Source: Cyanobacteria bacterium RM1_2_2 (GTDB lineage: Bacteria; Cyanobacteriota; Cyanobacteriia; Elainellales; Elainellaceae). Taken from it: DNA of 56,823 nucleotides. Of this stretch, positions 321-54,499 are shown in pieces. The position numbers and the translations under genes were made by a program. The notes below the pieces were generated by a model. It had not been told where the DNA came from. It made no database searches and was given only the letters and a program-made list of their open reading frames with translations. Location of the stretch: positions 1-56,823 of the forward strand of contig JAAUQT010000009.1 of the NCBI GenBank assembly GCA_012033495.1, written 5' to 3'. Within the stretch, counting starts at the first letter, position 1. Every line of letters begins with the position of its first letter.

Positions 321-454
321 CTTAAGAATGGGAATTCAATCAGTTCGATTGTGCGTAGGGGCGGGTGTTGCGGTCATATCCATTGCAGGCTGCCCATTAA
401 TCTGCTTAACCCGCTCGTACATTTTACGGATTGATTAAGTCCACGATTCTTAGG
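321..454 (+). repeat. Dispersed hairpin element, family A, copy 1
   Basis: About 134 bp that closely match 13443-13575 in the same orientation and 54372-54499 in inverted orientation. All three share end motifs (CTTA-GAATGG at the left, CCACGAT-CTTAG at the right), a central GGGCGGGT stem paired with ACCCG-(C/T)(C/T)C, and the block TGCGGTCA. The ends are imperfect inverted repeats, so the whole unit can fold into one long interrupted hairpin. This copy lies just downstream of tRNA-Ser and is the most diverged of the three. There is no coding potential. Confidence 0.8.
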
Positions 455-840
455 AATGAGTGCAAGGCGTTAGGCATCTCAACACACTAAGCTGAGGAGT
501 TTCTGAGGTTTATAGAGGGGAGGTGACGAAGGTTCAAGCAGCTTCTCGTATGATGAAGTTAGCGCAACCTCAAAGTTATGGGAGTCTTAAAGCTAGCAAC
601 CCCAATCGATGCGTCTGGGCAACTTCACCTCAATTTGCGAACCCATTTGCCCTTCAAGCAACTGAGGAAATCATTTAGATTTGCTGTGAATTGAAGTACT
701 GATTTATGCGAAGACTCGAAAAGCACCAGTGGGAACAGAACTAGAAACCGACTCAGCAGGCATTTAACTGTTACACTCCTATCTAAAGGCTTGATCGCAC
801 CGTTACTGTCCTCATTGACTTTATTGAACTGACTGTTGCA
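455..840. other. Intergenic spacer without recognisable gene
   Basis: No open frame with family similarity, no tRNA and no clear terminator is seen between the family A repeat and the DICT gene at 841. The promoter of the 841 gene must lie here. TTGACT at 815-820 is a possible -35-like hexamer but has no good partner. Nothing else is supported. Confidence 0.5.
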
Positions 841-2304
841 ATGTTACCAGGCTCAATTTTACAAAAGCTTAGTGATGCTCACCACCCCCTTCATGCGGGG
901 AAGCGCCCACTCAATTTTGGTGTTTACTACAAAAACACCTTGGTTGCCCTTTGTCATGCCCTAGAAGACGCTATTCTCAGTGCAGACTATCAGCCTTTGA
1001 TGATTACTGCCTTCCAACGCGGCAAGTGGTATCTCGAAGAAGCCAATCGCTATGGTGAAATTGCCGATCGAGCGCGTCAGGTCGTGATTATGGCGGCGGC
1101 TGAGTCAGGTTTTGCAGAGCACCCTACAAGCCAGAAAGCGATCGTAGAGTTGGTCAGCCTCGATCCAGAAGATGCAGTAGCGCAAGAGTGGCACTTGATT
1201 ATTGTGTCTCCTAACTACACGGCAATGGTGCTGTGTCAAGAGCTATCTGAGGCGGACTACGGCAAGGCTGGGCAGCCAAAAGCTGACTTAGAGCGCAAGT
1301 TTTATGGCTTCTGGACGTTTGAGCCCAGTTTAGTCATAGAAACCGCAGAGCTAGCGATCGAACATATTGGCCGCTACAACCCCACTTTGCAGCAAAAGTT
1401 AGCAGCGCAAGTAGCAGAAATTTCTGGACAGATTCAGCAGGATGAGTCCCTTTGCGGCTTGCCCACGGCAGAACATTTAGGTGAAACGGTTTCGCGCGTG
1501 ATTGACTACCTGCAAGCCTGTCAGCAAGACCTTAACCAATTCCGCTCACCCTACTCGATGGCAGCAGATCCGCTCGACACGAATCTCACTTCTAGCGAAC
1601 TGCAAGCCTTTTTGCGCCTCGCTCAGCTAATGGATCAAACTGACCTGAGTAATCCCATGGCGGCGGCTGAGGTAGCCAGTTTAGCTGAAGCCATCGGGCA
1701 ACTGTTGGATCTACCGTCTTGGCAACTGCACCGCCTCCGATTGGCAGGTTTACTGCATCGCCTCGCGTTTTTACGCACCTCCGAAGCCTTATCTGATCGC
1801 CGCACTTCGATCCAAGAATATGCCGAATCGCCCGAAAAACCTCTCGCTTGCCCGCTGATTCCTGGCATTCAAGTGTTGCGAAAAATGCAGCGATTACGAG
1901 CCGTTGCCGCTATTTTGACGCACCAGAACGAGTGGTGGAATGGCTCAGGGCAACCTGCCGGCCTCGCAGGTGACGAAATTCCAGTCGAGTCTCGGATTTT
2001 GGCACTCATAGCCGAGTTTCAGCAGCAGCTAGCCCATTTGAGAGCGAATACCGCTACCCACACGGTTGATGCAGAAGCCGCTTCCTCAGAGGCAATGCTG
2101 TCAATGGCGCTCGAAGCCTGTCGGCAACAAGAAGGCGAGCGCTGGGATCCAAAACTGCTTGAAGTGTTGAAATTGCTGGTGATTGCCCTTCAACAAGGCG
2201 TTAGCTTGCCCGTGACGTTGCCCAAAATTGCATCTGGGCTGTGGCTGCTTGATGCCTACGCCGATGAGGAATTCAGCCCATCTAGCAACCTCTCACTCAC
2301 CTAA
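841..2304 (+). CDS. DICT sensory domain protein with degenerate HD-type C-terminal domain
   Basis: A 487-residue soluble protein. Residues about 20-180 match the DICT sensory domain: FGVYYKNTLVALCHALEDAI near the start and FYGFWTFEPSL at the end. This domain is found beside GGDEF, EAL, HD and histidine kinase modules in cyanobacteria. The C-terminal half (about 240-430) resembles an HD-GYP phosphohydrolase, but the metal-binding signatures are gone: the HD pair reads HR in LAGLLHRLAF, and the HHExxDGxGYP motif reads THQNEWWNGSGQP. It is therefore probably a sensor or scaffold rather than an active cyclic-di-GMP hydrolase. The signal sensed is unknown. It is monocistronic and the ATG at 841 is the only good start. 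Confidence 0.85.
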   Translation: MLPGSILQKLSDAHHPLHAGKRPLNFGVYYKNTLVALCHALEDAILSADYQPLMITAFQRGKWYLEEANRYGEIADRARQVVIMAAAESGFAEHPTSQKAIVELVSLDPEDAVAQEWHLIIVSPNYTAMVLCQELSEADYGKAGQPKADLERKFYGFWTFEPSLVIETAELAIEHIGRYNPTLQQKLAAQVAEISGQIQQDESLCGLPTAEHLGETVSRVIDYLQACQQDLNQFRSPYSMAADPLDTNLTSSELQAFLRLAQLMDQTDLSNPMAAAEVASLAEAIGQLLDLPSWQLHRLRLAGLLHRLAFLRTSEALSDRRTSIQEYAESPEKPLACPLIPGIQVLRKMQRLRAVAAILTHQNEWWNGSGQPAGLAGDEIPVESRILALIAEFQQQLAHLRANTATHTVDAEAASSEAMLSMALEACRQQEGERWDPKLLEVLKLLVIALQQGVSLPVTLPKIASGLWLLDAYADEEFSPSSNLSLT

Positions 2305-2358
2305 CTCCTTTTCGCTGTATAAATTTTTCTGTATAAATCCTATTCATCAGCAATTGAC

Positions 2359-3006
2359 ATGGATATTGAGGCAATTCGGACAGGCAAGCTCAAGCAGTTA
2401 GCAGGCGCAGATCTGGAAGATGAAGACTTGTCGCAGGCAGACCTCAGCCGCGTGAATCTGGCAGGCGCAAAGCTGAACGGAGCAAATTTGAGTGCCGCCA
2501 AACTCCTAGGAGCCAACCTTGATGGCGCGAGTCTTCTGGGCTGCCAACTGCTGCGTACCGATCTGCGAGCCAACCTGCTCGGAGCTAACCTCATGCAAGC
2601 AGACCTCACCGCTGCCGACTTGCGGGGGGCGAATCTGCGAGGCGCAAATCTGATGCAGTCTCGCTTGACGCAAGTGACGCTCACAGGTGCTTTTTTGAGT
2701 GGAGCCAATTTGATGGGTGTTAGCTTATCAAGGGTTGATCTGCGGGGTGCAGACCTGCGGGGCGCTAATTTGAATGGCGCGAATCTGGCAGGGGCAAATT
2801 TAGCGCAAGCCGACCTGCAAGGAGCAATCTTGACGGAAGCAAATTTGGAAGAAGCCGACCTCAGAGACGCAAACTTGGCAGGCGCAAACCTTACTGGAGC
2901 CAACCTGCTCTGTGCTGAGCTATCTGGCACAAACTTTGATGGTGCAAATTTGACCAGCACCTGCATCAAAGGCACTGTGTTAGAAACTGAAGCGATTAGA
3001 GACTAA
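2359..3006 (+). CDS. Pentapeptide repeat protein
   Basis: A 215-residue protein made almost wholly of tandem A(D/N)LxX pentapeptides from about residue 16 to 205, for example ADLRGANLRGANLMQ. Such repeats form a right-handed quadrilateral beta helix. There is no signal peptide, membrane segment or extra domain. Pentapeptide proteins are abundant in cyanobacteria and most have no assigned function. It starts 54 bp after the DICT gene on the same strand, so the two may be co-transcribed. A hairpin at 3039-3095 follows it. Confidence 0.9.
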   Translation: MDIEAIRTGKLKQLAGADLEDEDLSQADLSRVNLAGAKLNGANLSAAKLLGANLDGASLLGCQLLRTDLRANLLGANLMQADLTAADLRGANLRGANLMQSRLTQVTLTGAFLSGANLMGVSLSRVDLRGADLRGANLNGANLAGANLAQADLQGAILTEANLEEADLRDANLAGANLTGANLLCAELSGTNFDGANLTSTCIKGTVLETEAIRD

Positions 3007-3038
3007 GGAGATTTCTGGCAAACCATCCACCCCGGTAC

Positions 3039-3095
3039 GGGCAGGTTTTGCAGATCAATCATCTGTCAATCGTAAGATTTGGGCCAAACCTGCCC
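3039..3095. terminator. Perfect 10-bp inverted repeat downstream of the pentapeptide gene
   Basis: GGGCAGGTTT at 3039-3048 pairs exactly with AAACCTGCCC at 3086-3095 across a 37-nt loop. It starts 33 bp after the stop codon. No T-tract follows, so it is not a classical intrinsic terminator. It could be a transcript-end stabilising hairpin or a remnant of a small palindromic element. Confidence 0.4.
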
Positions 3096-3296
3096 CAACG
3101 TAGCGACAACTTTTTCCCCAGAAAGCTCCTAAGCTAAACCTCAAGTCACAAAAATTACGCAACTAAAACCATTTCGTAAACTCGAAGTAAATTTGAGCCG
3201 AAATTAGGATGTTTTCTCCTGAGCAAAGGCAGTACTTCCGTAAGCAAGATTTGGGTAACGTTCCCTTTTGCACTTTCTCCCTACTCAATCTTACTC

Positions 3297-5762
3297 ATGG
3301 CTAGCACTTTCTTTGACCTATCTACTCTTGATGGCACGAATGGCTTTGTCATTAATGGCCCGGCTCCTCAATATGGGTTTGGGCGCTCACCTAGTTGGCT
3401 AGGCGACATAAATGGTGATGGCATCGATGATGTCATTGTTGGAGCAGATGCTGTTGGCAGTGAAAGAACTTTTCTACCCGGATTTGCCTACGTTCTATTT
3501 GGCAGAACCAGCGGATTTTCAGCCAGCTTAGATCTTGCTAGTCTCAACGGCAGCAACGGTTTTGTGATTCAAGGCGCTTCTGCCAACGACAGCACTGGCT
3601 TCTCCGTTAGCGGCATTGACGATATCAACGGCGATGGATTCGCAGATTTGATCGTCGGAGCAAGATTCTCCAACATTAAGGGCTCCTTATCCGGACGCAG
3701 CTACGTTGTATTTGGGCAGCGAGGCGGCTTTCCATCCATTCTCAATGTGTCTGACCTCAACGGCAGCAATGGATTTTTCATTAATGGAATTGGCCCCAAT
3801 GATCGATTAGGTCGAGCCGTCAGTCGAGCCGGAGATGTAAACGGAGACAGACTCGCAGACTTCATGATTGGAGCAAGTTTGGCCAGACCTGGAGGTGCTG
3901 ATACAGGACAAACCTATGTTGTCTTCGGCAACAGAAATGGTTTTCCTGCTGATTTTGATCTAACTTCCTTAAACGGCACGAATGGCTTTGCCATTGATGG
4001 ATTCAGATCAAAAGATGATCTGGGTTTTGCAGTCAGTACCGCTGGTGATCTGAACAGAGATGGCTTCGATGATCTGATCGTAGGAGCGCTTAACGCTGAT
4101 CCAGACGGTAAAAACGCAGCCGGACAAAGCTACATTATCTTTGGCAAAGCAAGCGGATTTTCTCCCCGCTTTGACCCAAGGACTTTAGACGGCACGAATG
4201 GCTTCATCATCAATGGGTTGAAAGCAGGAGATATTTTGAGTCAGTCTGTGCGTTCGGCTGGAGATGTGAATGGAGATGGAATTGATGACATTGTAATAGG
4301 TGCTCCTGAAGCTGACCCAGACGGTAAAGATGCAGCCGGACAAAGTTATGTCATCTTTGGACAACGCGGCGGGTTTCCAAAAAACTTTGACCTCTCCACT
4401 CTGAATGGCAGCAACGGGTTTACCCTCAATGGAGCCTCAGCCGGAGATGAGTTTGGCATTGTGGTGAACACAGCCGGAGATCTCAATAATGACGGTATCG
4501 ATGATCTGGTGTTTGGTGCCCCTAAAGCTGATCCAGATGGCAAAAACAACGCTGGGCAAGTGTATGTTGTCTATGGGAGTCGAGCAGGTTTTGCCCCCGT
4601 CATCAATGTTGCCAATTTGAGCAGCAATGAAGGATTAATCATTAATGGCAGAACTGCTGGGGCTGATTTCGGGAGATTTGTGAGTAAAGCAGGAGACTTA
4701 AACCAAGATGGCATCGATGACCTGATTATTGGTTCCCCTTCTGCTGGGCCCAATGGCATCAACTCAGGACAAGCTCACATCATTTTTGGTGGCAGCACCT
4801 TCAAAAATGTTGCTGGCTCGCTCGGACTAACGCTCACTCCCCCTCTCATCGACGCTTCTGGGGTGACGTCCGGCTCCATCACCGTTGACCTGTCTACTAC
4901 CACCCTCACCGTTAATCAAGCTCCTCAACCATCTACCCAAACCGTCAAAGGCTATACCGATGTGATTGGCACTGTCTTTAACGACAGCATCACCGGCAAT
5001 GATAAACCCAACTTCCTGTCGGGCAATGCCGGAGATGACACAATTTTTGCAGGAGCCCAAAACGACATTTTGGTTGGAGGAGCAGGCAACGATCGCCTTG
5101 AGGGTGGGACAGAAAACGATCGCTATCTTTTCGATGCAGATACACCCCTTGGAACGGATACCTTAACGGATACCTCCGGGGTTGACACATTAGATTTCTC
5201 GTCAACTACAACTCAAAAGGTTAACCTCAACCTTCGGAGTTCTAAGCTTCAAGTTTTGAACTCCAATCATCGGTTGAAATTGAGTCCACCCAAGTTTGAG
5301 AACGCGATTGGGGGCAGCTTAGCTGACACGTTGACTGGCAATGCGGCCGGCAACCTCTTGGTCGGCAATGCGGGCAACGATCGGCTGACAGGCGGCGCAG
5401 GGCGAGATCGGCTCACCGGGGGCAGAGGACGAGATCGGTTTATTTTTGACTTGGGCACTCGCTTCAGCGCTAAAACAATGGGCAAAGATGTCATCACTGA
5501 TTTTACGCGCTCAAAAGATAAAATAGTGCTCGACCGCAGCACATTCCATACCCTCAAAAAAGGCCGGTTGAAAAGTTTTGCGAAGGTCAAAACAATTGCC
5601 CAAGCCAAACGCAGCGATGAGCAAATTGTTTACATTCGTAAAACAGGCAGCTTGTTCTACAATGCCAACGGCGACAAAGCTGGATTCGGTCAGGGTGGAC
5701 TATTTGTCGATCTGAAAAATGGGCTAAACTTGGCAGCCCGCGATTTCCTGACCCAAGCCTAA
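3297..5762 (+). CDS. Large FG-GAP / RTX calcium-binding exoprotein
   Basis: An 821-residue protein. Residues about 35-490 hold seven FG-GAP beta-propeller blades, each with a calcium motif such as GDINGDGIDDVIVGA and a linker such as YVVFGQRGGFP. Residues about 560-730 hold RTX nonapeptides (GGAGNDRLE, GNAGNDRLTGGAGRDRLTG). A serralysin-like C-terminal region with DVITDF follows. There is no N-terminal signal peptide. The RTX block plus a short C-terminal tail are typical of type I secretion substrates, so it is probably exported and folds on binding calcium outside the cell. No type I transporter genes are nearby. Integrin-like propellers often act in adhesion or surface-layer structure. The specific role here is unknown. 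Confidence 0.88.
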   Translation: MASTFFDLSTLDGTNGFVINGPAPQYGFGRSPSWLGDINGDGIDDVIVGADAVGSERTFLPGFAYVLFGRTSGFSASLDLASLNGSNGFVIQGASANDSTGFSVSGIDDINGDGFADLIVGARFSNIKGSLSGRSYVVFGQRGGFPSILNVSDLNGSNGFFINGIGPNDRLGRAVSRAGDVNGDRLADFMIGASLARPGGADTGQTYVVFGNRNGFPADFDLTSLNGTNGFAIDGFRSKDDLGFAVSTAGDLNRDGFDDLIVGALNADPDGKNAAGQSYIIFGKASGFSPRFDPRTLDGTNGFIINGLKAGDILSQSVRSAGDVNGDGIDDIVIGAPEADPDGKDAAGQSYVIFGQRGGFPKNFDLSTLNGSNGFTLNGASAGDEFGIVVNTAGDLNNDGIDDLVFGAPKADPDGKNNAGQVYVVYGSRAGFAPVINVANLSSNEGLIINGRTAGADFGRFVSKAGDLNQDGIDDLIIGSPSAGPNGINSGQAHIIFGGSTFKNVAGSLGLTLTPPLIDASGVTSGSITVDLSTTTLTVNQAPQPSTQTVKGYTDVIGTVFNDSITGNDKPNFLSGNAGDDTIFAGAQNDILVGGAGNDRLEGGTENDRYLFDADTPLGTDTLTDTSGVDTLDFSSTTTQKVNLNLRSSKLQVLNSNHRLKLSPPKFENAIGGSLADTLTGNAAGNLLVGNAGNDRLTGGAGRDRLTGGRGRDRFIFDLGTRFSAKTMGKDVITDFTRSKDKIVLDRSTFHTLKKGRLKSFAKVKTIAQAKRSDEQIVYIRKTGSLFYNANGDKAGFGQGGLFVDLKNGLNLAARDFLTQA

Positions 5763-5831
5763 CTGCTTGCCCAATGATCCCCTTAACCAGTAAGCTCATC
5801 CAAAAAGTGAGTTAATAAATTCATGGATTAA

Positions 5832-6701
5832 GTGGATCAAATGGTGGCAACTCAAAATTTGATAGAAAATTCTATTACCGTCGAAAAACTGGAATGGTTT
5901 TACCGCACGGCTGAGCCGCTCAACCCTGCTGATAAACCCCCGGTTGTTTTGCTGCATGGTTTGCCTGCTCAAAGCTATAGCTGGCGAGCCGTGATGCCTG
6001 CCCTCGCCGAACAGGGCTTTCGCTCAATTGCGCCCGATTGGTTGGGCTTTGGCTTCTCGGCTAAACCTGACCGGCGCGACTTTGCCTACACTCCCGATGC
6101 CTATGTGCAAGCGCTAGCCGATTTTCTCAAACTACTGGAGATCGATCGGTGTTTCCTTGTGGTGCAAGGGTTTCTGGGTTCCGTTGGGTTGCAATATGCC
6201 TTGCGCCATCCCGATCAAATCGAGCGGCTGGCAATTTTGAATACGCCCCTGACAACTGCCGCTAAGCTGCCTTGGAAAATGAAACAGCTTGGTATTCCGC
6301 TGATTGGCGAGATGCTGACGCAAGATCCGCTGCTAGTAGATCGCACCTTGGAAGGGGGCGGCGGCTATCGGGTCGAAGATGCTGATTTGGATGTGTATCG
6401 CCGACCGTTTTTGAAAAGCTCGGCAGCCGGACGCTCGCTGCTTGCCGCCGTCCAAAAACTGAACCTCCCTCAGGTTACTGCCGAACTGGAGTCCGGATTT
6501 GGCAATTGGCAACAGCCAACCCTGATCGCTTGGGGCAAGCGCGACCCGTGGTTGCCATTTGAGATGGCTCAAGCTTTTAGTAAAAAACTGCCAAATGCAG
6601 AGCTGGTAGAGCTTGCCGAAGTTGGACATTACCCCCAAGAAGACTGGCACGAAAAGGTAAGCGAAGCCTTGCTTACTTTTTTTCGCCGTCAGATTGTTTA
6701 G
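5832..6701 (+). CDS. Alpha/beta-hydrolase fold protein lacking the nucleophile
   Basis: A 289-residue protein from a GTG at 5832. An ATG at 5841 is an equally plausible start and no Shine-Dalgarno sequence decides it. The fold is clear: the oxyanion HG motif in VVLLHGLPAQSYSW, the strand-turn PDWLGFGFSAKPD typical of epoxide hydrolase and dehalogenase relatives, a late acid in WGKRDPWLP, and the base histidine in EVGHYPQEDWHE. The nucleophile elbow, normally GxSxG or HDWGG, reads VVQGFLGSVGL, with glycine where Ser or Asp belongs. Catalysis by the usual ester mechanism is therefore unlikely. Substrate and role are unknown. It precedes coaD on the same strand by 176 bp. Confidence 0.85.
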   Translation: MDQMVATQNLIENSITVEKLEWFYRTAEPLNPADKPPVVLLHGLPAQSYSWRAVMPALAEQGFRSIAPDWLGFGFSAKPDRRDFAYTPDAYVQALADFLKLLEIDRCFLVVQGFLGSVGLQYALRHPDQIERLAILNTPLTTAAKLPWKMKQLGIPLIGEMLTQDPLLVDRTLEGGGGYRVEDADLDVYRRPFLKSSAAGRSLLAAVQKLNLPQVTAELESGFGNWQQPTLIAWGKRDPWLPFEMAQAFSKKLPNAELVELAEVGHYPQEDWHEKVSEALLTFFRRQIV

Positions 6702-6766
6702 GCAACCCTGAATAAATGATTAACATTTGTTGAGTCAGCCATCGTTACCGAAAGTAAGGCTTCAGG

Positions 6767-6816
6767 TATAATCACTTGACATTCACCCTGATTAGCGTGA
6801 GAGTGTCCGATATAAT
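6767..6816 (+). promoter_or_regulatory. Candidate promoter region for coaD (two TATAAT boxes)
   Basis: Two consensus -10 hexamers, TATAAT, occur at 6767-6772 and 6811-6816, both followed by C(A/G)C. The first has TTACCG 16 bp upstream. The second has no strong -35. TTGACA at 6776-6781 sits between them but is too far from the second box for normal spacing. The coaD start is about 60 bp downstream of the second box. This is motif evidence only. Confidence 0.35.
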
Positions 6817-6877
6817 CGCCTCAACCCAAAGGATGAGTGTGGTTTAGTCTCCAAGCGAATAAAAACTGGAATAGGCT

Positions 6878-7456
6878 GTGATTGCTATTTATCCTGGCAG
6901 TTTTGATCCGATCACCCGTGGACATTTGGATGTCATTGAGCGCGGCTGTCGCCTCTTTGAACAGGTGATCGTCGTTGTGTTTCGGAATTCGAGCAAATCG
7001 CCTCTATTCACGGTGCCGCAACGCTTGGATCAGATTCGTCGGTCTACTCGACATCTACCTAACCTGGAAGTGGATAGTTTTGATGGCTTAACTGTCACCT
7101 ATGCTCGCCTCCGACAAGCCAAAGTGCTGCTGAGAGGGCTACGGGTCGTTTCAGATTTTGAAATGGAGCTACAAATGGCTCACACCAACAAAACGCTGGC
7201 AGACGACATCGAAACCGTCTTTTTGGCAACCTCCACTGAATATAGTTTCCTCAGCAGTAGTGTGGTAAAGGAAATTGCCCGGTTTGGTGGCCCCGTTGAT
7301 CATCTCGTTCCTCAAGCTGTTGCTATAGATATCTGCAAATGTTACGCCAAGACCCTGATCGCATCAGCCCCGACGACCGCCGAAGGCTCAGCCCCAACAA
7401 CACCGGAGGCTCCTCAAATCGAGTGCCTCAAGAAGCCGCACGCATCGGGGGGGTAG
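6878..7456 (+). CDS. coaD: Phosphopantetheine adenylyltransferase
   Basis: CoaD transfers AMP from ATP to 4'-phosphopantetheine, the fourth step of coenzyme A synthesis. The start is a GTG at 6878, immediately before [20 protein letters not shown], which holds the nucleotidyltransferase TxGH motif. The second signature, [18 protein letters not shown], is near residue 125. The enzyme core ends near residue 162. The remaining 30 residues are a low-complexity Ala/Pro/Thr tail not typical of the family. That tail is encoded by DNA that also encodes the start of the next gene in another frame, an overlap of 118 bp. The pair is probably one transcription unit. Confidence 0.95.
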
Positions 7457-8364: not shown

Positions 8365-8385
8365 GTGTGATTAAGGTTCGGATGG

Positions 8386-12397: not shown

Positions 12398-13411
12398 ATG
12401 AAGCAAGAATTAAAGAAAAGAGGTGAGAGTTTTCCTGTGAATCGTCTTTCAGAGCGAGCAAAAATTTTAGTGGTAGATGACCACCCTTCTAGCCGAATGA
12501 CGGCTGTATCCTTGCTTTCGATGGAAGGCTATGAAGTATTGGAGGCAGATAATGGTCAAGCTGCCCTAAATCAAGTTCAAGTCGCCGATCCAGACTTGAT
12601 TTTGCTAGATGTAATGATGCCTGGCATGGATGGCTATGAAGTGTGTCAGCGCCTTAAACAAGATGAGCAAACCCGCCTGACGCCGATTGTGTTTGTTACT
12701 GCCCTTAATGACCGAGGTGCCAGAGTCAAAGGAATCGAGGTCGGCGGCGATGACTTTTTGACGAAGCCGTTTGACCAGTTGGAACTTGCTGCGCGGGTGC
12801 GGTCGCTCGTTCGGCAAAAACAACTCAACGAAGATCTTGATCATGCTGGACAGGTGCTGTTCTCTCTGGCTCGCACGATTGAAAGTCGTGATCCCAACAC
12901 AGGCGACCACTGTGAGCGGTTGGTTCAGTTGGGACAAACCTTCGGTGAGTTTTTGCAGCTACCGCGTCAAGAAATCCGAGATTTGATGTGGGCAGGCTAT
13001 CTGCATGATATCGGCAAGATTGGGATTCCAGACGCAATTTTGTTAAAAACCAGTCCGCTTACCCCCGCAGAACGAGTAATTATGCAGCAGCATGTGCTGA
13101 TTGGAGAGCAAATTTGTCAACCGTTACGCACAATGCAGGGAGTGGTGCCAATCATTCGCCATCACCATGAGCGTTGGGACGGTTCAGGCTATCCCGATCG
13201 GCTGATGGGAAATCACATCCCGTTTTTGGTGCAGGTGTTTCAATTGGTAGACATCTACGATGCCCTCACCCATGAACGCCCCTACAAGCCGGCCTTTAGC
13301 CCGCAGGAGTCGCTGGCTATTTTGATGCAGGAAGTCGAGCAAGGGTGGCGCAATCCGGCTTTGATGCAGAGATTTACTGAATTTGTTTCTTCTCAGCAAG
13401 TTGCTGCCTGA
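12398..13411 (+). CDS. Response regulator with HD-GYP phosphodiesterase output domain
   Basis: A 337-residue protein. The receiver domain spans about residues 22-140, with acidic pair Asp27/Asp28, phospho-acceptor Asp71 in LILLDVMMPGMDG and Lys123. The HD-GYP domain spans about 150-320 with intact HD at 203-204 (YLHDIGKIGIPD) and HHHERWDGSGYP at about 255-266. Such proteins hydrolyse cyclic di-GMP when phosphorylated, so this is a likely active RpfG-type phosphodiesterase. No histidine kinase is adjacent, so its partner is elsewhere. This contrasts with the degenerate HD domain of the 841-2304 protein. A family A repeat follows the gene. Confidence 0.92.
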   Translation: MKQELKKRGESFPVNRLSERAKILVVDDHPSSRMTAVSLLSMEGYEVLEADNGQAALNQVQVADPDLILLDVMMPGMDGYEVCQRLKQDEQTRLTPIVFVTALNDRGARVKGIEVGGDDFLTKPFDQLELAARVRSLVRQKQLNEDLDHAGQVLFSLARTIESRDPNTGDHCERLVQLGQTFGEFLQLPRQEIRDLMWAGYLHDIGKIGIPDAILLKTSPLTPAERVIMQQHVLIGEQICQPLRTMQGVVPIIRHHHERWDGSGYPDRLMGNHIPFLVQVFQLVDIYDALTHERPYKPAFSPQESLAILMQEVEQGWRNPALMQRFTEFVSSQQVAA

Positions 13412-13442
13412 AATAGCAGTTTTTATATTGGAATCGACGTTG

Positions 13443-13575
13443 CTTAGGAATGGGAATTCAATCCGTTCGATCGTGGGTCGGGGCGGGTTTTGCGGTCAAA
13501 TCGATTGCCGGATGCCCATTGATCTGCTCAACCCGCCCGTCCAGTTTACGGATTGATTAAATCCACGATCCTTAG
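13443..13575 (+). repeat. Dispersed hairpin element, family A, copy 2
   Basis: 133 bp, same orientation as copy 1 and inverted relative to copy 3. It is the best-preserved copy: the central stem GGGCGGGTT pairs perfectly with AACCCGCCC, and CAATCCGT occurs in both arms. It lies between the HD-GYP gene and glmU. It could act as a transcript boundary between them and ends 22 bp before a TATACT hexamer that may be the glmU -10 box. Confidence 0.85.
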
Positions 13576-15096: not shown

Positions 15097-15205
15097 TTAA
15101 AGGATTTTGGAAAAGTGGTTAGCTGTACTTTGGGAACCTGTTGCTCCCCCTAGCCCTCTTCAATTCATCAAAAGGAGTGAACTGAACTCAACGTCCCTTT
15201 AGATG
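15097..15205 (+). repeat. Degenerate copy of the outer MITE found at 16637-16991
   Basis: The left part (TTAAAGGATTTTGGAAAAGTGGTT..., GGGAACCTGT, CTGAACTCAA-GTC-CCCTTT) aligns with both halves of the 16637-16991 element. It reads straight through the point where that element is interrupted. The right terminal repeat is missing or unrecognisable. It therefore shows what the unoccupied site looked like before the inner element inserted. Confidence 0.6.
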
Positions 15206-15322
15206 TTTTTGGGAACAGGCGCGATCCGGCTGATGCTGCAAGCGTTTGACCCTTCATGTTTGACCATGCATGGATAATGCGCCCTAGACAATACGTTACG
15301 CAAATTAAGAATTCACATCGTG

Positions 15323-45648: not shown

Positions 45649-45650
45649 GA

Positions 45651-46703: not shown

Positions 46704-46725
46704 AGTTTCCCCTTAATGAAACTGC

Positions 46726-47271
46726 CTAATTGTCCCGGAAGGGCATGCCTAGTTCCTTTAGCAGCGCACGACCCTCCTCATCTGTATTTGCCGTAGTGAT
46801 GATGGAAATATCCATCCCTCGAATTTGGTCAATGTTGTCATACTCGACTTCAGGAAAAATAAGCTGCTCTCGAATTCCCAAAGTGTAGTTACCCCGACCG
46901 TCAAAACTTTTTGGACTGATCCCGCGAAAATCTCGGATGCGGGGAAGCGCTAGATTAATCAGACGATTCATAAATGCGTACATCCGCTCGGAGCGCAGCG
47001 TCACCATGATGCCGACTGGCATTCCTTTCCGAATTTTGAATCCAGCGATCGCCTTTTTCGCTCTCGTGACCACTGGTTTTTGTCCCGTAATCAGAGAAAT
47101 CTCATTAATCGAGGATTCCAGCGCCTTTGCATTCTGCGCCGCTTCTCCCAAACCGCGATTAATCGTCACCTTAATGATTTTAGGAACTTGATGAATGTTC
47201 TCATACTGAAACTGCTCAATCAGCTTTGGAACAACCTTTTCCTTGTAAAGCTCTTTTAATGCATCCGTCAT
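46726..47271 (-). CDS. rplE: 50S ribosomal protein L5
   Basis: 181 residues: [41 protein letters not shown] and [27 protein letters not shown]. It contacts 5S rRNA and the P-site tRNA. Confidence 0.98.
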
Positions 47272-47327
47272 AGCATTTCTCCTCTAATTGCCCTGGTCTT
47301 GGTCAGGGTTGAATTTAGTTTGCGCAT

Positions 47328-47672
47328 TTAGTCCAACACTTCTCCGGTCTTCTTCAGCATTCGGACTTTGCGCCCCTCTGCGTTGAAGGTGTAGCAAACG
47401 CGGCTTGCCACTTTTTGTTTGGTGGAGTAAAGCATGACGTTAGAACTGTGAATCGGCACTTCAATCGTGGTGATTTGTCCCGACTCACCCTCTTGTTGAG
47501 GCTTGACATGCTTCGTTTTGATATTGACACCTTTAACCAAGACCTTGTTGGTCTTCGGAAAGGTTTGCAGCACTTCGCCCACCTTACCCTTGTCGCTACC
47601 GGCAATGACCTGCACGGTATCGCCCTTTTTAACGTGCATCTTGTGACGCACAGGGGTTAAATTCTTCGTCAT
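47328..47672 (-). CDS. rplX: 50S ribosomal protein L24
   Basis: 114 residues with a KOW motif: [24 protein letters not shown], then [22 protein letters not shown]. Start overlaps the rplN stop by one base. Confidence 0.97.
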
Positions 47673-48037
47673 TACAGCACCTCCGGAGCCAAAGAGACAA
47701 TTTTTGTGAAGTTTTTGTCTCGCAATTCGCGGGCAACGGGGCCAAACACCCGCGTTCCTCTCGGATTGCCCTCTGCGTTGATGATCACTGCGGCGTTGTC
47801 ATCAAAACGGATGCTCATGCCGCTGTCTCGTCGCAGTCCTTTTTTCGTCCGTACTACAACAGCCCGAACGACGTCTGATTTCTTCACTGCCATGTTGGGA
47901 ATTGCGTCCTTTACTACGGCAATGATCACATCCCCGACATTGGCGTAACGACGGTTGCCGCCCAGCACCCGGATACACATCAGCTTGCGAGCACCGCTGT
48001 TGTCCGCCACATTAAGATAACTTTCCTGTTGAATCAT
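47672..48037 (-). CDS. rplN: 50S ribosomal protein L14
   Basis: 121 residues: [41 protein letters not shown] and [27 protein letters not shown]. Typical full-length L14. Confidence 0.98.
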
Positions 48038-48072
48038 GATTCGCCTCCCTGGAGAATGAATTTATAAATTCC

Positions 48073-48324
48073 TTAGGCTTCAGGGATATGGCTAAGAATA
48101 TCTACCACTTCCCAACGTTTGGTGCGGCTTAGAGGTCGCGTTTCCTGAATCCGAACCCGATCCCCTACCTTACATTTGTTCTCTTCGTCATGCACTTTGT
48201 ACCGCTTCGTGCGCACAACAATCTTGCGGTACTTGGGGTGGGGAGCACGGTTCTCGATTGCCACCACAATCGTCTTTTCCATCTTGTCGCTGACCACTAA
48301 GCCAACGCGCTGCTTGACTGCCAT
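48073..48324 (-). CDS. rpsQ: 30S ribosomal protein S17
   Basis: 83 residues: [22 protein letters not shown] and [22 protein letters not shown], the OB-fold signature of S17. It follows rpmC by 2 bp. Confidence 0.97.
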
Positions 48325-48326
48325 AA

Positions 48327-48566
48327 TTACTCCTCTCCTTCACTCACTTCTGAACCGGGAGTTGCAGCAGCCAACTGGCGCTCTCGCTCTAGGGTCATCA
48401 ATTGAGCTAACCGATGACGCAGATGCTTGAACTGGTGTGGTTTCTCCAGTTGCCGAGTGGCTTTTTGAAAACGCAACTGAAACAACTCCTTTTTAGTTGC
48501 CACAATCCGATCGTTTAGTTCTTGATCGCTAAGATCGCGAATTTCCTCAACTTTGGGCAGAGGCAT
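48327..48566 (-). CDS. rpmC: 50S ribosomal protein L29
   Basis: 79 residues: [45 protein letters not shown]. It sits at the polypeptide exit where SRP and trigger factor dock. It follows rplP by 4 bp. Confidence 0.96.
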
Positions 48567-48570
48567 AAGA

Positions 48571-48989
48571 CTACGACTCCTCCGCTTGGCGCGTGATAAA
48601 TTTGGTCTTGATGGGCAGTTTGTACTGAGCTAATCGCATTGCTTCACGAGCAGTTGCTTCCGGCACGCCTGCGATCTCAAACAAGACGCGACCCGGCTTC
48701 ACAACGGCGACCCAAAATTCTGGGTTTCCTTTACCAGAACCCATCCGGGTTTCTGCCGCTCGCATTGTGACTGGCTTGTCAGGGAAAATCCGAATCCAGA
48801 TTTTGCCACCCCGACGAATGTAACGAGTCATGGCACGACGCTCGCCTCAATTTGTCGAGAGGTAATCCAGCAGGGTTCAAGTGCCTGTAGGGCAAACTCA
48901 CCGAAGTTGATTTCATGACCAGCAGTGGCCATCCCCTTCATGCGCCCCCGCTGCTGCTTTCGGAATTTAGTTCTTCTAGGACTTAACAT
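48571..48989 (-). CDS. rplP: 50S ribosomal protein L16 (frameshifted as read)
   Basis: The full protein of about 139 residues is present in two frames. From the ATG at 48989 it reads [20 protein letters not shown], then [20 protein letters not shown] and ends at RQIEAS. The second frame (from 48831) continues [20 protein letters not shown] through to the stop. One missing base at 48840-48841 (AGC-CGT-CGT-GCC-ATG expected, one C absent) separates them. L16 is essential and single-copy, so this is almost certainly a sequence error. L16 shapes the A-site region of the 50S subunit. Confidence 0.93.
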
Positions 48990-49082
48990 GGCTACTACCT
49001 TTAAAGTCAGTTTGAGTTTCTTCGTTTTGAGTTACGGGCTAGAGAAGATCTGACTTGAAACTCAAAAATTCAAACCTCGATT

Positions 49083-49831
49083 TCACCCTTCATTCGAGCG
49101 GTCTTCGTATTGCTGGCGACGACGCTGTTGACGACGACGAGGCTGGGTATTATTGGGCTGAGTGACTTCCTCTTGACCAGGAATGATTTCGCCCTTGAAC
49201 ACCCACACTTTAATACCGAGAATGCCGTAGATGGTTTGAGCCGTCCGGTAGGCATAATCAATATCGGCTCGCAAGGTGTGGAGCGGCACTTTACCTTCAC
49301 GAGTGTATTCAGTCCGAGCAATTTCAGCCCCGTTCAACCGACCGCTGATTTGAATTTTGATGCCCTCGATTCCGGCTCGCTGGGCCCGCTGGATAGCTTG
49401 CCGCACCACACGACGAAATGAAACCCGCCGTTCTAGATCGCGCACCACGTTTTCTGCAATTAGGGCAGCATCGGCATCAACGCGAGCAACTTCAACCACA
49501 TTGACCCGGATCTGACGGTTACTGTCCCCTAGGGCTTTTTGCAAACCGTTGCGTAAATCTTCAATCCCTTGCCCCCCTCGGCCTACAACAACGCCAGGAC
49601 GAGAGGTATGGATTCCAGATCAATTTGATCCGCTTTGCGTTCAATCCGAATCTTAGCGATTCCCGGACTGTCTAAGCTTTTGAGCTTCTGGGGGTTGGTT
49701 TCCAGAAAGTTGCGAATAGTGTAGTCTTCTTGCAGCAGTTTAGGATAGCGACTGGAATCCGCAAACCACCGAGACTGGTGCTCCTGCGTGATACCAAGTC
49801 GAAAGCCAACTGGATGAATCTTCTGTCCCAC
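49083..49831 (-). CDS. rpsC: 30S ribosomal protein S3 (frameshifted as read)
   Basis: Two frames together encode about 250 residues. The first (from 49831) has [21 protein letters not shown] to KADQIDLE. The second holds the KH-domain end (reading [20 protein letters not shown] before QKALGDSN) and [33 protein letters not shown]. The break lies at the AA at 49613-49614, where one further A restores [13 protein letters not shown]3 is essential, so a base-calling error is the likely cause. The C-terminal tail is Gln/Arg-rich ([14 protein letters not shown]). It forms the mRNA entry channel. Confidence 0.93.
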
Positions 49832-49890
49832 GGTACGTCCTCTAGTTAAAGGCAGTAGAGATAGTTAAATCAGCAAACATAAATCTTAAA

Positions 49891-50256
49891 TTAATCCTCA
49901 TCTTCAGCACCTGGTGCGACGGCAATTGTGATGTGGCACGTCGGCTTGCGAATTTGATAAGCCCGTCCCTGAGCACGAGGACGGAACCGCTTCAACACAG
50001 GCCCCTGATCTGCAAAAGCTTGAGTGATCAGCAATTCAGACGGGGCATAGCCAGCATTGTGCTCAGCATTTGCGACGGCTGAACGCAACACCTTCAGAAT
50101 AGGTTCACATGCTCTATAGGGCATAAACTCTAAAATGATCAATGCCTCCCGATAAGAGCGCCCCCGAATTTGATCCAGGACTCGACGCACCTTAAAGGGT
50201 GACATTCGGATGTAGCGAGCAATCGCTTTTGTCTCTTCTCCAGTAGCAACAGCCAT
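49891..50256 (-). CDS. rplV: 50S ribosomal protein L22
   Basis: 121 residues from the ATG at 50256, which has AAGGAG 6 bp upstream. The longer frame to 50298 lacks family support. The sequence has [26 protein letters not shown] and the tunnel-loop region [22 protein letters not shown]. Lies between rpsS and rpsC. Confidence 0.96.
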
Positions 50257-50323
50257 AGTTTTCTCCTTGAAGCGATTCGCCTTCTGCATGAACTGCATGA
50301 TCGATCGCTAATTAATTTGCCGA

Positions 50324-50602
50324 TTAGCGACGAGCCTTTTTGTCACTTTTGGCGTGACCTCTGAAAGTACGGGTTGGCGCAAACTCACCGAGCTTGTGCC
50401 CGACCATCTGTTCATTGACGTAAACCGGAACATGCTGCCGTCCGTTGTGGACGGCAATGGTGTGCCCAATCATTTGCGGCAGGATGGTAGAAGCACGAGA
50501 CCAAGTTTTGATCACTTGCTTTTCGCCTCTTGCGTTGAGCGCTTCCACTTTGCTGAGCAAATGATCGGCAACAAATGGGCCTTTTTTTAGCGAGCGAGAC
50601 AT
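50324..50602 (-). CDS. rpsS: 30S ribosomal protein S19
   Basis: 92 residues: [42 protein letters not shown] and [14 protein letters not shown]. Complete and typical. It sits at the head of the 30S subunit and pairs with S13. Confidence 0.98.
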
Positions 50603-50659
50603 GTCAAATAACCTCTGTTTAACCTTGCATCCTTACGAAAACCTAAGCACAGCCTAAGC

Positions 50660-51522
50660 CTAAGATTCTCTTCCGCCCCGACCCCGCTTAGAGGTACGAC
50701 GGCGACGACGCACAATCATCGCATTGCTGGCTTTTCGCTTTTTACGAGTCTTCATGCCCAGAGCGGGTTTACCCCAAGGCGTCACAGGTCCAGGACGACC
50801 GATGGGTGCCCGACCTTCACCTCCTCCATGGGGGTGATCCACTGGGTTCATCACACTGCCTCGCACTTCGGGACGGCGTCCTTTCCAGCGCTTACGACCG
50901 GCTTTACCTAGGCTGGTATTGCGAACATCACTGTTTCCAACCTGGCCGATGGTGGCATAGCATTCTCGGCGCACCATCCGTACTTCAGTTGAAGGCAGCT
51001 TCAGCGTGACGAAATTCCCTTCCTTAGCAACCACCTGCGCTGAAGCGCCCGCTGCTCGGACAATTTGCCCCCTTTTCCGGGAACTAATTCCACGTTATGA
51101 ACGGCTGTACCCAGCGGCATATTGCCTAGCGGCAGCGCGTTGCCCACTTCAAACGGTGCGTCAGGGCCAGAAATAATAGTTGCACCTACTTCCAATCCGG
51201 CAGGATGAAGAATATAGCGCTTCTCTCCGTCCTGATAATGCACTAATGCAATTCGAGCGTTGCGATTTGGATCGTATTCGATGGATGCAACCTTTGCTGG
51301 AATGCTGTGCTTATTGCGGTAAAAATCAATGATTCGATATAGCCGCTTGTGTCCACCCCCCCGATGGCGGCAAGTCACCACCCCGCGATTGTTGCGCCCC
51401 TTCGGACGATGCACAGAACGAGTGAGTGATTTCTCTGGTTCGCTGCGGGTTACTTCAGCAAAATCTGAGACGACTCGCTCGCGAGTACCAGGCGTGTAAG
51501 GACGATAAGACCGAATTCCCAT
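50660..51522 (-). CDS. rplB: 50S ribosomal protein L2 (frameshifted as read)
   Basis: Two frames together encode a normal L2 of about 288 residues. From 51522: [42 protein letters not shown] and ending LVPGKGG. The second frame continues [22 protein letters not shown] and the conserved [20 protein letters not shown] around the peptidyl-transferase-proximal His. The break is at a run of five Cs on the plus strand (51068-51072), where a sixth restores the frame. L2 is essential, so this is most likely a homopolymer error. Confidence 0.94.
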
Positions 51523-51544
51523 AATTTGTTAATCTCCGGAGACA

Positions 51545-51850
51545 CTAGACTTCAGGGAACAGGGTGATAGAATCGCCCGGTGCCAAAGTAACAATTGCTC
51601 GTTTGTATTGAGGACGATGGCCTGCAAATCGGCCAACCCGACGCTCCTTTTGAGGCGGATTATAAGTATTAACACTTACTACTTTCACATCAAACAGATC
51701 TTCAATCGCTGCTTTAATCTGAGGCTTAGTAGCCCGATGCACAACTTCAAAGGTGTATTTGTTGTTTTCTAGAAGAAACGTGGCTTTCTCAGTGACAAGC
51801 GGACGACGAATGAGGTCGGGCAGGCTGCGAGCATCAATTCGATTAGTCAT
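51545..51850 (-). CDS. rplW: 50S ribosomal protein L23
   Basis: 101 residues: [47 protein letters not shown]23 lies at the exit tunnel and docks trigger factor. Its start overlaps the rplD end by 8 bp, indicating coupling. Confidence 0.97.
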
Positions 51851-52478
51851 TACCGTAGACCTCCTGGATCATCGTAAGGGCAGATTGAGTGGCTACCAGT
51901 TGATCCGCCGCGAGGATATCAAAAATATTGAGATTATTTGCAGAAATCATTCGCACATTGCTGACATTGCGAGCAGACAAATAGACGTTGTCATTGCGTT
52001 GAGCCACAATCAACAGCACTTTTGAATCTGCTTCAATGCCCCAACGAGACATTGCTTGCACTAACTCTTTCGTTTTAGGACGAGGCAAATTATCGGCAAA
52101 ATCTGCAACAACAATCAGGTCTTCAGCGCGACTTTGTAATGCAGTTCTCAATGCTAAACGTCGCTCTTTGCGGTTCATTTTGACGGAAAAATCTCTGGGT
52201 TTTGGGCCAAAGATTACACCGCCCCCTTTCCACAAGGGAGACCGAGTAGAACCTGCACGAGCACGCCCTGTCCCTTTTTGCCGCCAAGGTTTGCGTCCGC
52301 CGCCGCTCACTTCTGCGCGAGTTTTAGTGGATGCTGTTCCCTGACGAGCATTATTCATTTGACGCACAAGCGCCCGGTGAACAATATGAGCCGCACTCTC
52401 TTCCTTAGCGACTCGCAAATCGAGCGAGGTTTGCCCCACCTCGGCCCCTTGCCAATCTTTTACTACGCACTCAGCCAT
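51843..52478 (-). CDS. rplD: 50S ribosomal protein L4
   Basis: 211 residues: [39 protein letters not shown] is the tunnel loop and [18 protein letters not shown] follows. In E. coli L4 autoregulates its operon. Whether that holds in cyanobacteria is not known. It follows rplC by 100 bp. Confidence 0.97.
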
Positions 52479-52578
52479 GACTCGCTATCCCTCACCTTAC
52501 AGGTGCAAAACATTCAGAAATCAAGATTCGGACAGTTGCTCAGCTTCAATCAAAGCCAATCGCAGGGTCAATTTTTCG

Positions 52579-53223
52579 TCAACCTTTCGCGCGCCCAACG
52601 GTTTTCGCAGGTACGATATTGAGCAATGCACCCGGCTTCCCTGGGACAGCGCCTTTAATCAACAGCAAATTGCGGTCAGTATCCACACGGACGACCGTGA
52701 GTTTACGCACTGTAACCCGGCCACCGCCCAGTTGACCAGCCATTCGCTTGCCTGGGTAAACCCGTCCTGGCGTTGTTCCTGCACCTGTTGAACCGGGAAG
52801 ACGGTGGTTTTTGGAACCATGCGCCATCGGCCCGCGCTTAAAGTTGTGCCGCTTTTGATATCCAGCAAACCCGCGACCGATGCTTGTGCCAATCACATCT
52901 ACAATCTGCCCTGCCGTGAACGCATCTGCCTTGATTTGCTGACCGAGTTCAAATTCAGCCGAACCCTCCAGCCGATATTCGTGTAAGTGGCGGAGAGGTG
53001 CTGAGCCAGACTTCGCAAAGTGCCCAAGCTCAGGTTTGGTTAGGGCTTTTGGCTTTACCTCGCCATACCCGACCTGCACCGCAGAATATCCGTCCGTTTG
53101 TTTAGTTTTAATTTGAGTAATCGTACATGGCCCGGCTTGAACGACCGTCACAGGAACAGCAGCGCCTGTTTCGTCGAAAATTTGGGTCATGCCGAGTTTT
53201 GTGCCGAGAATTCCAATAGACAC
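52579..53223 (-). CDS. rplC: 50S ribosomal protein L3
   Basis: About 214 residues from a GTG at 53223 ([18 protein letters not shown]), the usual family start. The open frame extends upstream to an ATG at 53271 ([15 protein letters not shown]), which is not typical. A GGGAG 10 bp before the GTG is acceptable. [23 protein letters not shown] is the L3 loop near the peptidyl transferase centre. It is the first gene of the S10-like operon here. rpsJ is absent and is expected with the tuf genes in cyanobacteria. Confidence 0.95.
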
Positions 53224-53330
53224 AGTTTTGGGTCTCCCTTGTTCTACCTTTTGCATCTTTTCCGCTGGCACAAAGAGGAGCGCAACTTACAGACAGAAGT
53301 TCTACCTCTTCTCAGCAGAAAGCAAACAAC

Positions 53331-53368
53331 TCTTCAGCCTGCTCAGCTCTCTTCAGCCTGCTCAGCTA
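53331..53368. repeat. 19-bp perfect tandem duplication in the rplC leader
   Basis: CTCTTCAGCCTGCTCAGCT occurs at 53331-53349 and 53350-53368. It lies about 110 bp upstream of rplC on what would be the 5' leader. Each unit contains the complement of AGCTGAGCAGGCTGA, so the leader RNA would carry two copies. Confidence 0.8.
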
Positions 53369-53844
53369 ATGAAGAATCGCAACCTCAATCAAGAGCCTCT
53401 TATAAAGACTCAGGAACGGAAAAGCTAGCTCATATGCTCTGAATCATTAAAACCAAGACTTGAGTAGAAGCGTTAAATCATTCCACCCAGTATCTTGTGC
53501 TTGAGAGCAAGACGCTACTTCACCAGACCAGGAGAACCAGCCTAAAGAAACTAGCCACCTCAAGGACATCCAGATATCAAGCATCAACCCACTCGTATAT
53601 CTGACCGCGTCCTAACGAAACAAACATGCCAGCAATTGATACCTTACTGACTTAGCTTTTGACGGTCTCAGTCTGATTTTTGGCAACAGCTATTAATCTT
53701 AAACTAGATTTAGTATAAGTGTCTACTATTTTTCACACTTAATTTTGCCTGCTTATCCTCTCTCTAGATCAAATAAATCAACTTTGCTTTACTATCTTTA
53801 GTCCAAGATAGGTTTAAGCGACGCTTAGCCCAGAGCATTTACCA

Positions 53845-53892
53845 TTGGCAGGATTGAAGGTTGGCAGGATTGAAGGTTGGCAGGATTCAAGG
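53845..53892 (+). repeat. 16-bp repeat, three units, just before the thioesterase start
   Basis: TTGGCAGGATTGAAGG occurs at 53845-53860 and 53861-53876, then TTGGCAGGATTCAAGG at 53877-53892. The last unit ends 4 bp before the ATG at 53897 and supplies the AAGG of the ribosome binding site, so each unit carries a potential Shine-Dalgarno-like GAAGG and a TTG. Confidence 0.85.
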
Positions 53893-53896
53893 AAGG

Positions 53897-54331
53897 ATGC
53901 AACCACTCAGCGACGAAAAATGGTTTGAATATCCGGTGCATGTTCATGCTCATCACACAGATTATGCGGGTGTTGTTTGGCACGGAACCTATGTAGCTTG
54001 GCTGGAAGAAGCGCGAGTTGAATGCTTGCGGTCGGTTGGGGTTGAATATGCTGACTGGGTTGCAGGCGGCTGTGAGTTGCCTGTGGTGGAACTGTCGATT
54101 CGGTATCACCGGTTTTTGCAAATGGGGAAATCGGCAGTTGTGAGAACCCGGATGCGGAAAATGACAGGCATTCGGCTGCACTGGGAGTATCAGGTGCAGT
54201 CACTAGACGGGCAAGAAACCTACATTACCGCTCAGGTGACGTTAGTTGCAGTTGACCGGCAAAGCGGCAAAGTCCTGCGGCGGTTGCCTGCTGAAATCAA
54301 GGACACACTTGCAAAACTACCCGCCAGCTAA
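53897..54331 (+). CDS. Acyl-CoA thioesterase, DHNA-CoA thioesterase type
   Basis: 144 residues from the ATG at 53897, with AAGGAAGG directly before it. An in-frame TTG at 53861 would only translate the repeats. It is a hot-dog fold (4HBT) protein: HHTDYAGVVWHGTYVAWLEEARVE carries the catalytic Asp. The motif matches the cyanobacterial Slr0204-type 1,4-dihydroxy-2-naphthoyl-CoA thioesterase, which acts in phylloquinone synthesis, and also YbgC-type thioesterases. The pathway role is inferred from similarity of the active-site block. It is convergent with ygfZ. Confidence 0.85.
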   Translation: MQPLSDEKWFEYPVHVHAHHTDYAGVVWHGTYVAWLEEARVECLRSVGVEYADWVAGGCELPVVELSIRYHRFLQMGKSAVVRTRMRKMTGIRLHWEYQVQSLDGQETYITAQVTLVAVDRQSGKVLRRLPAEIKDTLAKLPAS

Positions 54332-54371
54332 TCCCATCTGCCCTTCACTCAAGCTAGTTGTATTAGATGTA

Positions 54372-54499
54372 CTTAGGATCGTGGATTTAATAAATTCATA
54401 AACTGTACGGACGGGTTGAGCAGATCAATGGGCAGCAATCGATTTGACCGCAAAACCCGCCCCGACCCACGATTGAACTGATTGAATTCCATTCCTCAG
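54372..54499 (-). mobile_element. Dispersed hairpin element, family A, copy 3, with 11-bp flanking duplication
   Basis: Inverted relative to copies 1 and 2. The 11-mer TTAGATGTACT occurs at 54363-54373 and 54502-54512, flanking the element. The right copy is the last codons and stop of ygfZ read in reverse. This fits an insertion at the ygfZ stop codon that duplicated its target. It lacks about five bases in the loop found in copy 2. The central stem keeps its pairing through one G-U position. It now separates convergent thioesterase and ygfZ genes. Confidence 0.85.

Follow-up and report, generated by a model that had tools for sequence, protein, structure and literature searches.

The described repeats closest to the element analysed here are the miniature inverted-repeat transposable elements (MITEs) and the repetitive extragenic palindromes (REPs) of bacterial genomes. 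In Anabaena sp. 90, 147 complete or partial MITEs have been reported, which the relevant part of that paper describes as unlike the ends of the insertion sequences (ISs) of the same genome (PMC3542288). In A. variabilis, many GTAG-15 dimers lie within long palindromes starting TATAGGAnTnnnATTTGATT, and the section on these dimers states that no empty palindromes were encountered (PMC3733652). A single paper, PMC9208149, contains both ISAzo13 and MITE, in parts that deal with other contexts. Among the publications listed in our literature search, none was presented as describing an ISAzo13-derived MITE, and the original description of the cyanobacterial MITE Nezha was outside what this search covered. 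Here, we analysed a stretch of 56,823 nucleotides from Cyanobacteria bacterium RM1_2_2 (assembly GCA_012033495.1, contig JAAUQT010000009.1, positions 1 to 56,823; "the window"), in which an earlier note, made from the sequence alone, had pointed out three copies of a hairpin element of about 130 bp, called family A. We consider it very likely (probability about 0.9) that family A is a non-autonomous MITE of about 125 bp, spread by an ISAzo13-family (DDE) transposase that acts on both ends and generates a 3-bp TWA duplication. This reading is based on the copy number, the inverted ends, the duplicated target and a single empty site, and on complete cyanobacterial ISAzo13-type ISs that have these ends and this duplication as well.

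The three copies lie at 321-454 (+), 13443-13575 (+) and 54372-54499 (-), as the earlier note had placed them, and over the full 133 bases of copy 2, copy 1 is 87.2% and copy 3 89.5% identical to it. The inverted ends and the central GGGGCGGGTT/AACCCGCCC stem described there are likewise present. Folding is stronger than in dinucleotide shuffles for copies 1 and 2 (z -3.40 and -3.44, respectively) and less clearly so for copy 3 (z -1.73). By aligning the copies with their flanks, we set the borders of the mobile unit, which in copy 2 is GGAATGGGAATT...AATCCACGATCC; its length is 125 bp in 44/71 copies measured. The terminal inverted repeats are imperfect, with GGAATGGGAATT at one end and GGATCGTGGATT at the other. 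Since the outer TTA represents the duplicated target, the span of 133-134 bp first assigned to the element is too long: it includes the duplications plus one to two extra bases, and the mobile unit within it measures 125 bp in copies 1 and 2. The corresponding features of the window are:

322..324: left target-site duplication of copy 1, TTA (partner TTA at 450-452)
325..449, + strand: family A MITE copy 1, 125 bp, 17 bases downstream of tRNA-Ser
13444..13446: left target-site duplication of copy 2, TTA (partner TTA at 13572-13574)
13447..13571, + strand: family A MITE copy 2, 125 bp, flanked by a response-regulator/HD-domain gene and a glmU-like gene
54376..54495, - strand: family A MITE copy 3, 120 bp with small deletions, between convergent genes; its flanks, TGA and TAA, differ

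The genome to which the window belongs (G000) is a draft assembly of 5.54 Mb in 335 contigs, estimated to be 91.65% complete. The three copies had been taken to imply a high genome-wide number, and this was borne out, as 54 full copies with exact consensus ends were found against 0 in the control. For the end motif TWAGGAWYGDGRATTNAAT, of which a single copy can yield two matches, the whole assembly gave 71 + 61 matches, compared to 0 + 0 for the reversed control. In the part of the genome examined, we counted 80 distinct copies (74 nearly complete), and the 10 copies in 492,453 bases (40 contigs unselected for content) extrapolate to approximately 113 per genome. Shortened copies are present as well; a pattern with a shorter gap gave four forward and four reverse matches.

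A search of the own and related genomes with copy 2, as the note had proposed, gave matches in 7/40 genomes (E <= 0.001, own genome included). Within the genus, one of the four other genomes showed 25 matches (G001) and three showed none (G002-G004), and this patchy presence suits a mobile element. Six places on a plasmid of Kovacikia minuta CCNUW1 matched with up to 79.5% identity, and MITEs with exact ends of the family A type were present in 19/388 genomes of the class. At one locus of G001 (C199:47747-48155), five matches to the core of family A follow one another every 72 bp, which looks like a tandem amplification of the hairpin module.

The flanking triplets are identical in 35/71 copies, whereas permutations gave a mean of 16.2 and never reached this number (0/20,000). 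Among the 31 copies with TAA or TTA on each side, the two triplets agree in 30/31 cases, and the identical flanking triplets therefore mark a 3-bp target duplication. An empty site was found for the copy at L180:8288, which sits within another dispersed repeat and accounts for each of the 17 hits that spanned a site in this search. At this position, 4/8 aligned uninterrupted relatives of the repeat read GTTTTAGCTGG, while the filled site consists of GTTTTA, the element and TTAGCTGG. Comparison of filled and empty site thus shows the insertion of a whole unit directly, in one case.

The same ends are found on complete ISs. A search of named genomes yielded 26 loci, 13 of which represent one IS in Calothrix sp. 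NIES-4101. This IS is 1,298 bp long, has the ends GGATCGTGGATTAAATAA and is flanked by matching TAA or TTA duplications in 10/12 copies with an intact left end. Comparing the family A ends with 14 ISAzo13-type loci, we found both ends within four mismatches of GGATCGTGGATTAAATAA at nine loci, one end at two and neither at three (shuffled ends reach the 1% level at 4-6 mismatches). These 14 loci comprise one representing the 13 of Calothrix, 12 of the 13 others and L163 of G012; the fragment L235 was excluded, L210 is the G015 locus, and L234, counted under neither end, was examined on one side only. In Microcystis aeruginosa NIES-4325, the two ends of the IS differ, one being GGATCGTGG and the other GGAATGAGG, an asymmetry similar to that of the family A MITE.

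ISAzo13-type ISs are also carried by G012 and G015, two genomes of the same taxonomic family as the host. At locus L120 of G015, two inverted GGATCGTGGATTAAAT ends lie 1.3 kb apart around a transposase encoded in two overlapping frames, which match PF07592 (8e-24 and 1e-77) and reach 158.5 and 286.8 bits, first and second frame respectively, with the NCBIfam ISAzo13 model (NF033519; cut-off 200). Several ISs (L120:764-1983, L163:947-2172, L213) have an A-rich stretch at the frame overlap beside an SMDTK motif, and judging from these sequences a programmed frameshift of cyanobacterial ISAzo13-type transposases is likely. With ends of the ISAzo13 type, the element is a MITE rather than a hairpin element that cannot be placed. 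What the earlier note had presented as an undescribed-looking repeat is a dispersed family, as it had implied, and its ends are those of a known IS family. An ISAzo13-type transposase would accordingly be the enzyme that moved the family A copies in this lineage.

A sister case exists in the own genome, where PF07592 gave four matches on three loci, namely C45 and the fragments C290 and C190. The C45 locus (L146:1468-2790) is a full-length IS flanked by TTA on either side, and its ends, GGAGATTTC, are shared by a second family of MITEs, family B. The window holds one copy of this family:

3007..3129, - strand: family B MITE with ends GGAGATTTCTGG/GGAGCTTTCTGG, TAA duplication and a core resembling the family A core

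In the own DNA examined, the family B pattern gave 17 loose matches, some of them due to chance; eight of these have identical flanks, all of which are TAA or TTA. The own genome thus hosts MITEs of two ISAzo13 lineages, and the C45 IS is a likely parent of family B.

Several observations weigh against the assignment of family A to ISAzo13. None of the own-genome PF07592 matches is an intact IS with family A ends; the draft state of the assembly (335 contigs, as given above) means that a family A parent could be missing from it. The left end GGAATGGGAATT fits most ISs less well than the right end does, the flanking triplets are not identical in 36/71 copies, and the single empty site differs in 4/8 of its aligned relatives. 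Finally, the transposition of family A is read from sequence. Inverted family A end pairs 0.6-2.5 kb apart with up to three mismatches occur 43 times in the own DNA examined; by eye, nearly all of them are chance pairs, and those at L253 and L256 seem to join the ends of neighbouring MITEs.

IS5 was considered as a parent as well. At locus L037 of G039, a right end lies beside a fragment of an IS5-type transposase that scores weakly with PF13586 (13.6 bits; cut-off 29.2). On contig C34 of G000, an IS5-type element with an interrupted frame (L064, approximately 1410-2352) is located close to a family A copy. The ends of this element (AAGAAGCTGTTTGTAAA) are its own and unrelated to those of family A, and IS5 parentage was therefore abandoned.

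The own genome contains a third dispersed repeat of about 130 bp with the ends CTAGGGCGCGTCATCCATTC / CTAGGGGCTGTGATCCATTC, which gave nine long matches in 492 kb (L175, L271, L283 and others). A 61-bp piece of it is found in the window at 15204-15264. Its own inverted ends suggest another MITE family.

A different origin of family A would be that of a REP or REPIN (a REP pair forming a hairpin) spread by an IS200-like tyrosine transposase of the RAYT (REP-associated tyrosine transposase) type, the outer ends being incidental. GTAG/CTAC-type tags border many of the cores, as they do in the REPs described in parts of PMC3733652. Matches to PF01797 (Y1 transposase) are present in 11/12 genomes carrying these MITEs or their ISs, the group to which the comparison was confined. 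The twelfth genome is the own genome, G000, whose draft assembly gave 0 PF01797 matches that would indicate a RAYT-type transposase. To our knowledge, insertion of the IS200 type leaves no target duplication, and at the one empty site the whole element was gained together with a TTA duplication, not the core alone. As the ends also match those of DDE-type ISAzo13 ISs, we regard a RAYT-driven spread of the complete element as extremely unlikely, although the same explanation may yet apply to how the core arose.

It is also conceivable, but rather unlikely in our view, that family A belongs to Nezha. Nezha is a cyanobacterial MITE, and the part of PMC3049150 concerned with its spread proposes mobilisation by ISNpu3-like elements. 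The palindrome around the GTAG-15 dimers of A. variabilis, which follows TATA and starts GGAnTnnnATTTGATT in the section of PMC3733652 describing it, loosely resembles GGAATGGGAATT. However, equating that palindrome with Nezha is a guess, and both Nezha and ISNpu3 were considered here by description.

Next to the MITE reading stands a functional one, in which the element is an RNA or DNA signal (a terminator, a protector of mRNA 3' ends or an insulator) selected at gene ends. The earlier note had observed that all three window copies follow the 3' ends of genes and proposed that they mark or shape transcript ends. Therefore, we analysed the gene context of 74 copies in long stretches, with open reading frames (ORFs) called by length alone. 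None of these copies lies inside an ORF; 58 were placed between two ORFs and 16 are located at contig or stretch ends. Of the gene 3' ends facing a copy, 28/60 are within 60 bp (control 20.7%; 0/5000 simulations), confirming an excess next to 3' ends, while the corresponding number for 5' ends is 9/56 (control 16.3%). The 58 placed copies are distributed over 18 convergent, 24 tandem and 16 divergent gaps, compared to 14.1, 56.8 and 29.1% in the control, and 3/5000 simulations gave a convergent number as high. A preliminary test with 43 mostly short loci had also shown 18 convergent positions (0/20,000 simulations), with 4/17 among the long loci alone. With a shorter ORF limit, 30/58 of the facing 3' ends are near a copy (1/5000) and the convergent excess becomes weaker (16/58; 64/5000).

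Both the convergent gaps and the positions near 3' ends exceed the control, which speaks for a signal at gene ends, as does the strong folding of copies 1 and 2. An RNAalifold consensus of 35 copies showed changes on both sides in 4/23 pairs, one of which (columns 22-117) is affected in 11 sequences, but all four of these pairs belong to the outer ends and the hairpin stem has no such pair. When we specified a structure ourselves, double-sided change affected one pair, compared to 1.1 in shuffles. Non-consensus bases amount to 7.3% in the hairpin arms, 4.5% in the loop and 2.7% in the ends of 24 own copies, three of which had been picked by exact ends. That the ends are the most and the arms the least conserved part speaks against selection on the hairpin and provides a further basis for the MITE reading.

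An intrinsic terminator, that is, a GC-rich hairpin followed by a T-tract, is not what the 80 copies generally present: a T-tract after the hairpin was found in 3/80 copies on one strand and 0/80 on the other, counting copies with an unrecognised arm as without. The orientation in tandem gaps is evenly split (12 versus 12) and hence shows no strand bias. No Rfam match points to a known RNA, since the whole window gave two tRNAs only at the gathering threshold and copy 2 none at E values up to 1. For copy 2, a terminator role is further weakened by a separate structure that precedes it:

13403..13420, + strand: terminator-like stem and T-tract, outside the element and just upstream of copy 2

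With few T-tracts, no strand bias and no compensation in the stem, the proposed role in marking or shaping transcript ends is not supported by these sequence data, and we consider a selected signal to be very improbable. A bias toward 3' ends is also expected from selection against insertion in genes and promoters. The bias itself is real and fits tolerance of insertion at these positions. Under the MITE reading, copies would persist mainly behind genes, where insertion may do little harm.

The central hairpin of family A is found between other ends, too. In copy 2, this exchangeable module is:

13477..13540, + strand: hairpin core of copy 2, 64 bp, GTCGGGGCGGGTT...AACCCGCCCGT

We compared seven pairs of cores, with 200 shuffles as control. 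The cores of the window copies of family A (13443) and family B (3007) agree at 50/59 aligned positions (0/200 shuffles as good), and their similarity spans from the GTCG/GTTG border to CCCGT, excluding both types of ends. A second pair of A and B cores agrees over the right third only (20/23). In G322, two GTAGGATG...CATCCTAC cores, the first flanked by A-type ends and the second by ends of a quite different type, match at 65/77 positions from border to border. The cores of L316 and L326 agree at 51/57 positions, beginning at the tag and stopping within the core, and those of L302 and L311 at 28/31. For L338 of G012 and L350 of G313, the agreement is limited to the 14-mer used for picking both. 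A solitary hairpin (L343) matches family A at 57/65 positions, starting before the tag (1/200 shuffles as good). Overall, the similarity begins at the GTAG tag in 5/7 pairs, several loci having been picked by a motif starting with GTAG and copy 2 reading GTCG. As loci picked by the GTAG motif share it by construction, what is informative in these alignments is that the similarity does not extend past the motif, together with the right border in G322.

Conversely, inspection by eye revealed several unrelated kinds of cores with family A-type ends across genomes. Among the matches listed, these kinds and the genomes carrying them are:

GTAGGGGCGGGTT: for example G000, G001, G012, G103 and G313
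CCTCACC/CCCTCTCC: G030, G133 and G327
GTAGGATGYGTTAG-like: G166, G270 and G322
GTAGGTTGGGTTGAG: G113, G270 and G313
GTAGGGGCGAAGC-like: G051, G113 and G286

G030 has 44 exact-end copies which, among the matches listed, show a palindrome wholly unlike that of family A. When 60 loci were chosen by core motifs instead, A-type ends bounded the core on both sides in 19 cases and on one side in 12, and were absent from both sides in 29; the tolerance was loose (four mismatches), and a few of these loci represent the paired arms of a single hairpin. For the exact 14-mer GTAGGGGCGGGTTT, we counted 65 matches in G000 and 92 in G313, compared to 0 for the reversed control. A rough classification of 549,276 bases resulted in eight A, eight B and five solitary hairpins; because of the loose end pattern, class A includes at least three hairpins that look solitary (L105, L110, L192). 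Two other types of ends were observed around such cores: TAAGTAGCTGGGTGAAATTAAAC and variants carry the GTAGGATGTGTTAGGC core (L309, L315, L321 and L326 of G270; L329 of G322), and TTAAATTGAGAATGGGGCAGATGCCT / TTTAAATGAACTTCTGGGCAAATGCGAAC and variants carry GTAGGGGCGGGTTT cores (L333, L339 and L350 of G313).

The GC-rich hairpin may accordingly be a separable cargo of the GTAG-palindrome kind and not the site recognised by the transposase. More generally, we tentatively suggest, at somewhat less than even odds, that cyanobacterial MITEs are combinatorial, with a few types of ends (ISAzo13-type A, B and others) carrying a shared, exchangeable pool of palindromic cores, GTAG-bordered or of other kinds. 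If this holds true, hairpin repeats would continually arise anew, either through two unrelated transposition systems (DDE enzymes acting on the ends and RAYT-like enzymes acting on the core) or through selection for any strong central palindrome, and the many hairpin families in cyanobacterial genomes would represent cargo and not separate elements.

For family A, the analysis links an abundant repeat of cyanobacteria to a named family of enzymes. The exact borders, target and empty site of family A allow proper annotation and masking of such repeats, and the exchange of cores between transposon ends suggests how several cyanobacterial hairpin families could have spread.

Compared to known systems, family A shares with bacterial MITEs such as Nezha, RUP and NEMIS (PMC3733652, PMC10969869) the short, non-coding sequence, the inverted ends, the target duplication, the intergenic position and the strong fold. 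It differs from them in its ISAzo13 ends and in a core that can be swapped between end types, Nezha being compared by description only. HIP1 (GCGATCGC), from which the earlier note had rightly set the element apart, is also a frequent cyanobacterial repeat but an unrelated 8-bp motif. With the cyanobacterial members of the ISAzo13-family ISs (PF07592, NF033519), family A has the terminal inverted repeats and the 3-bp TWA duplication in common; these ISs, however, are about 1.3 kb long and contain two overlapping transposase frames, whereas family A has about 125 bp and no gene. The GTAG-tagged REPs and REP dimers, as far as the corresponding parts of PMC3733652 describe them, resemble family A in their GC-rich palindromic core, often bordered by GTAG/CTAC; they were compared with the present cores by description, and the present A-type ends carry several core types. 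The outer palindrome of A. variabilis is presented in the same parts of that paper without a link to a transposase or an unoccupied target, whereas the outer part of family A is an ISAzo13 end pair. By analogy, the A. variabilis dimers within palindromes are probably another case of the same arrangement, already briefly reported. What is new here beyond PMC3733652 is the transposase family, the target duplication, the empty site and the core exchange. Measured against these systems, the mobility of family A is ordinary, while the exchange of its core is unusual.

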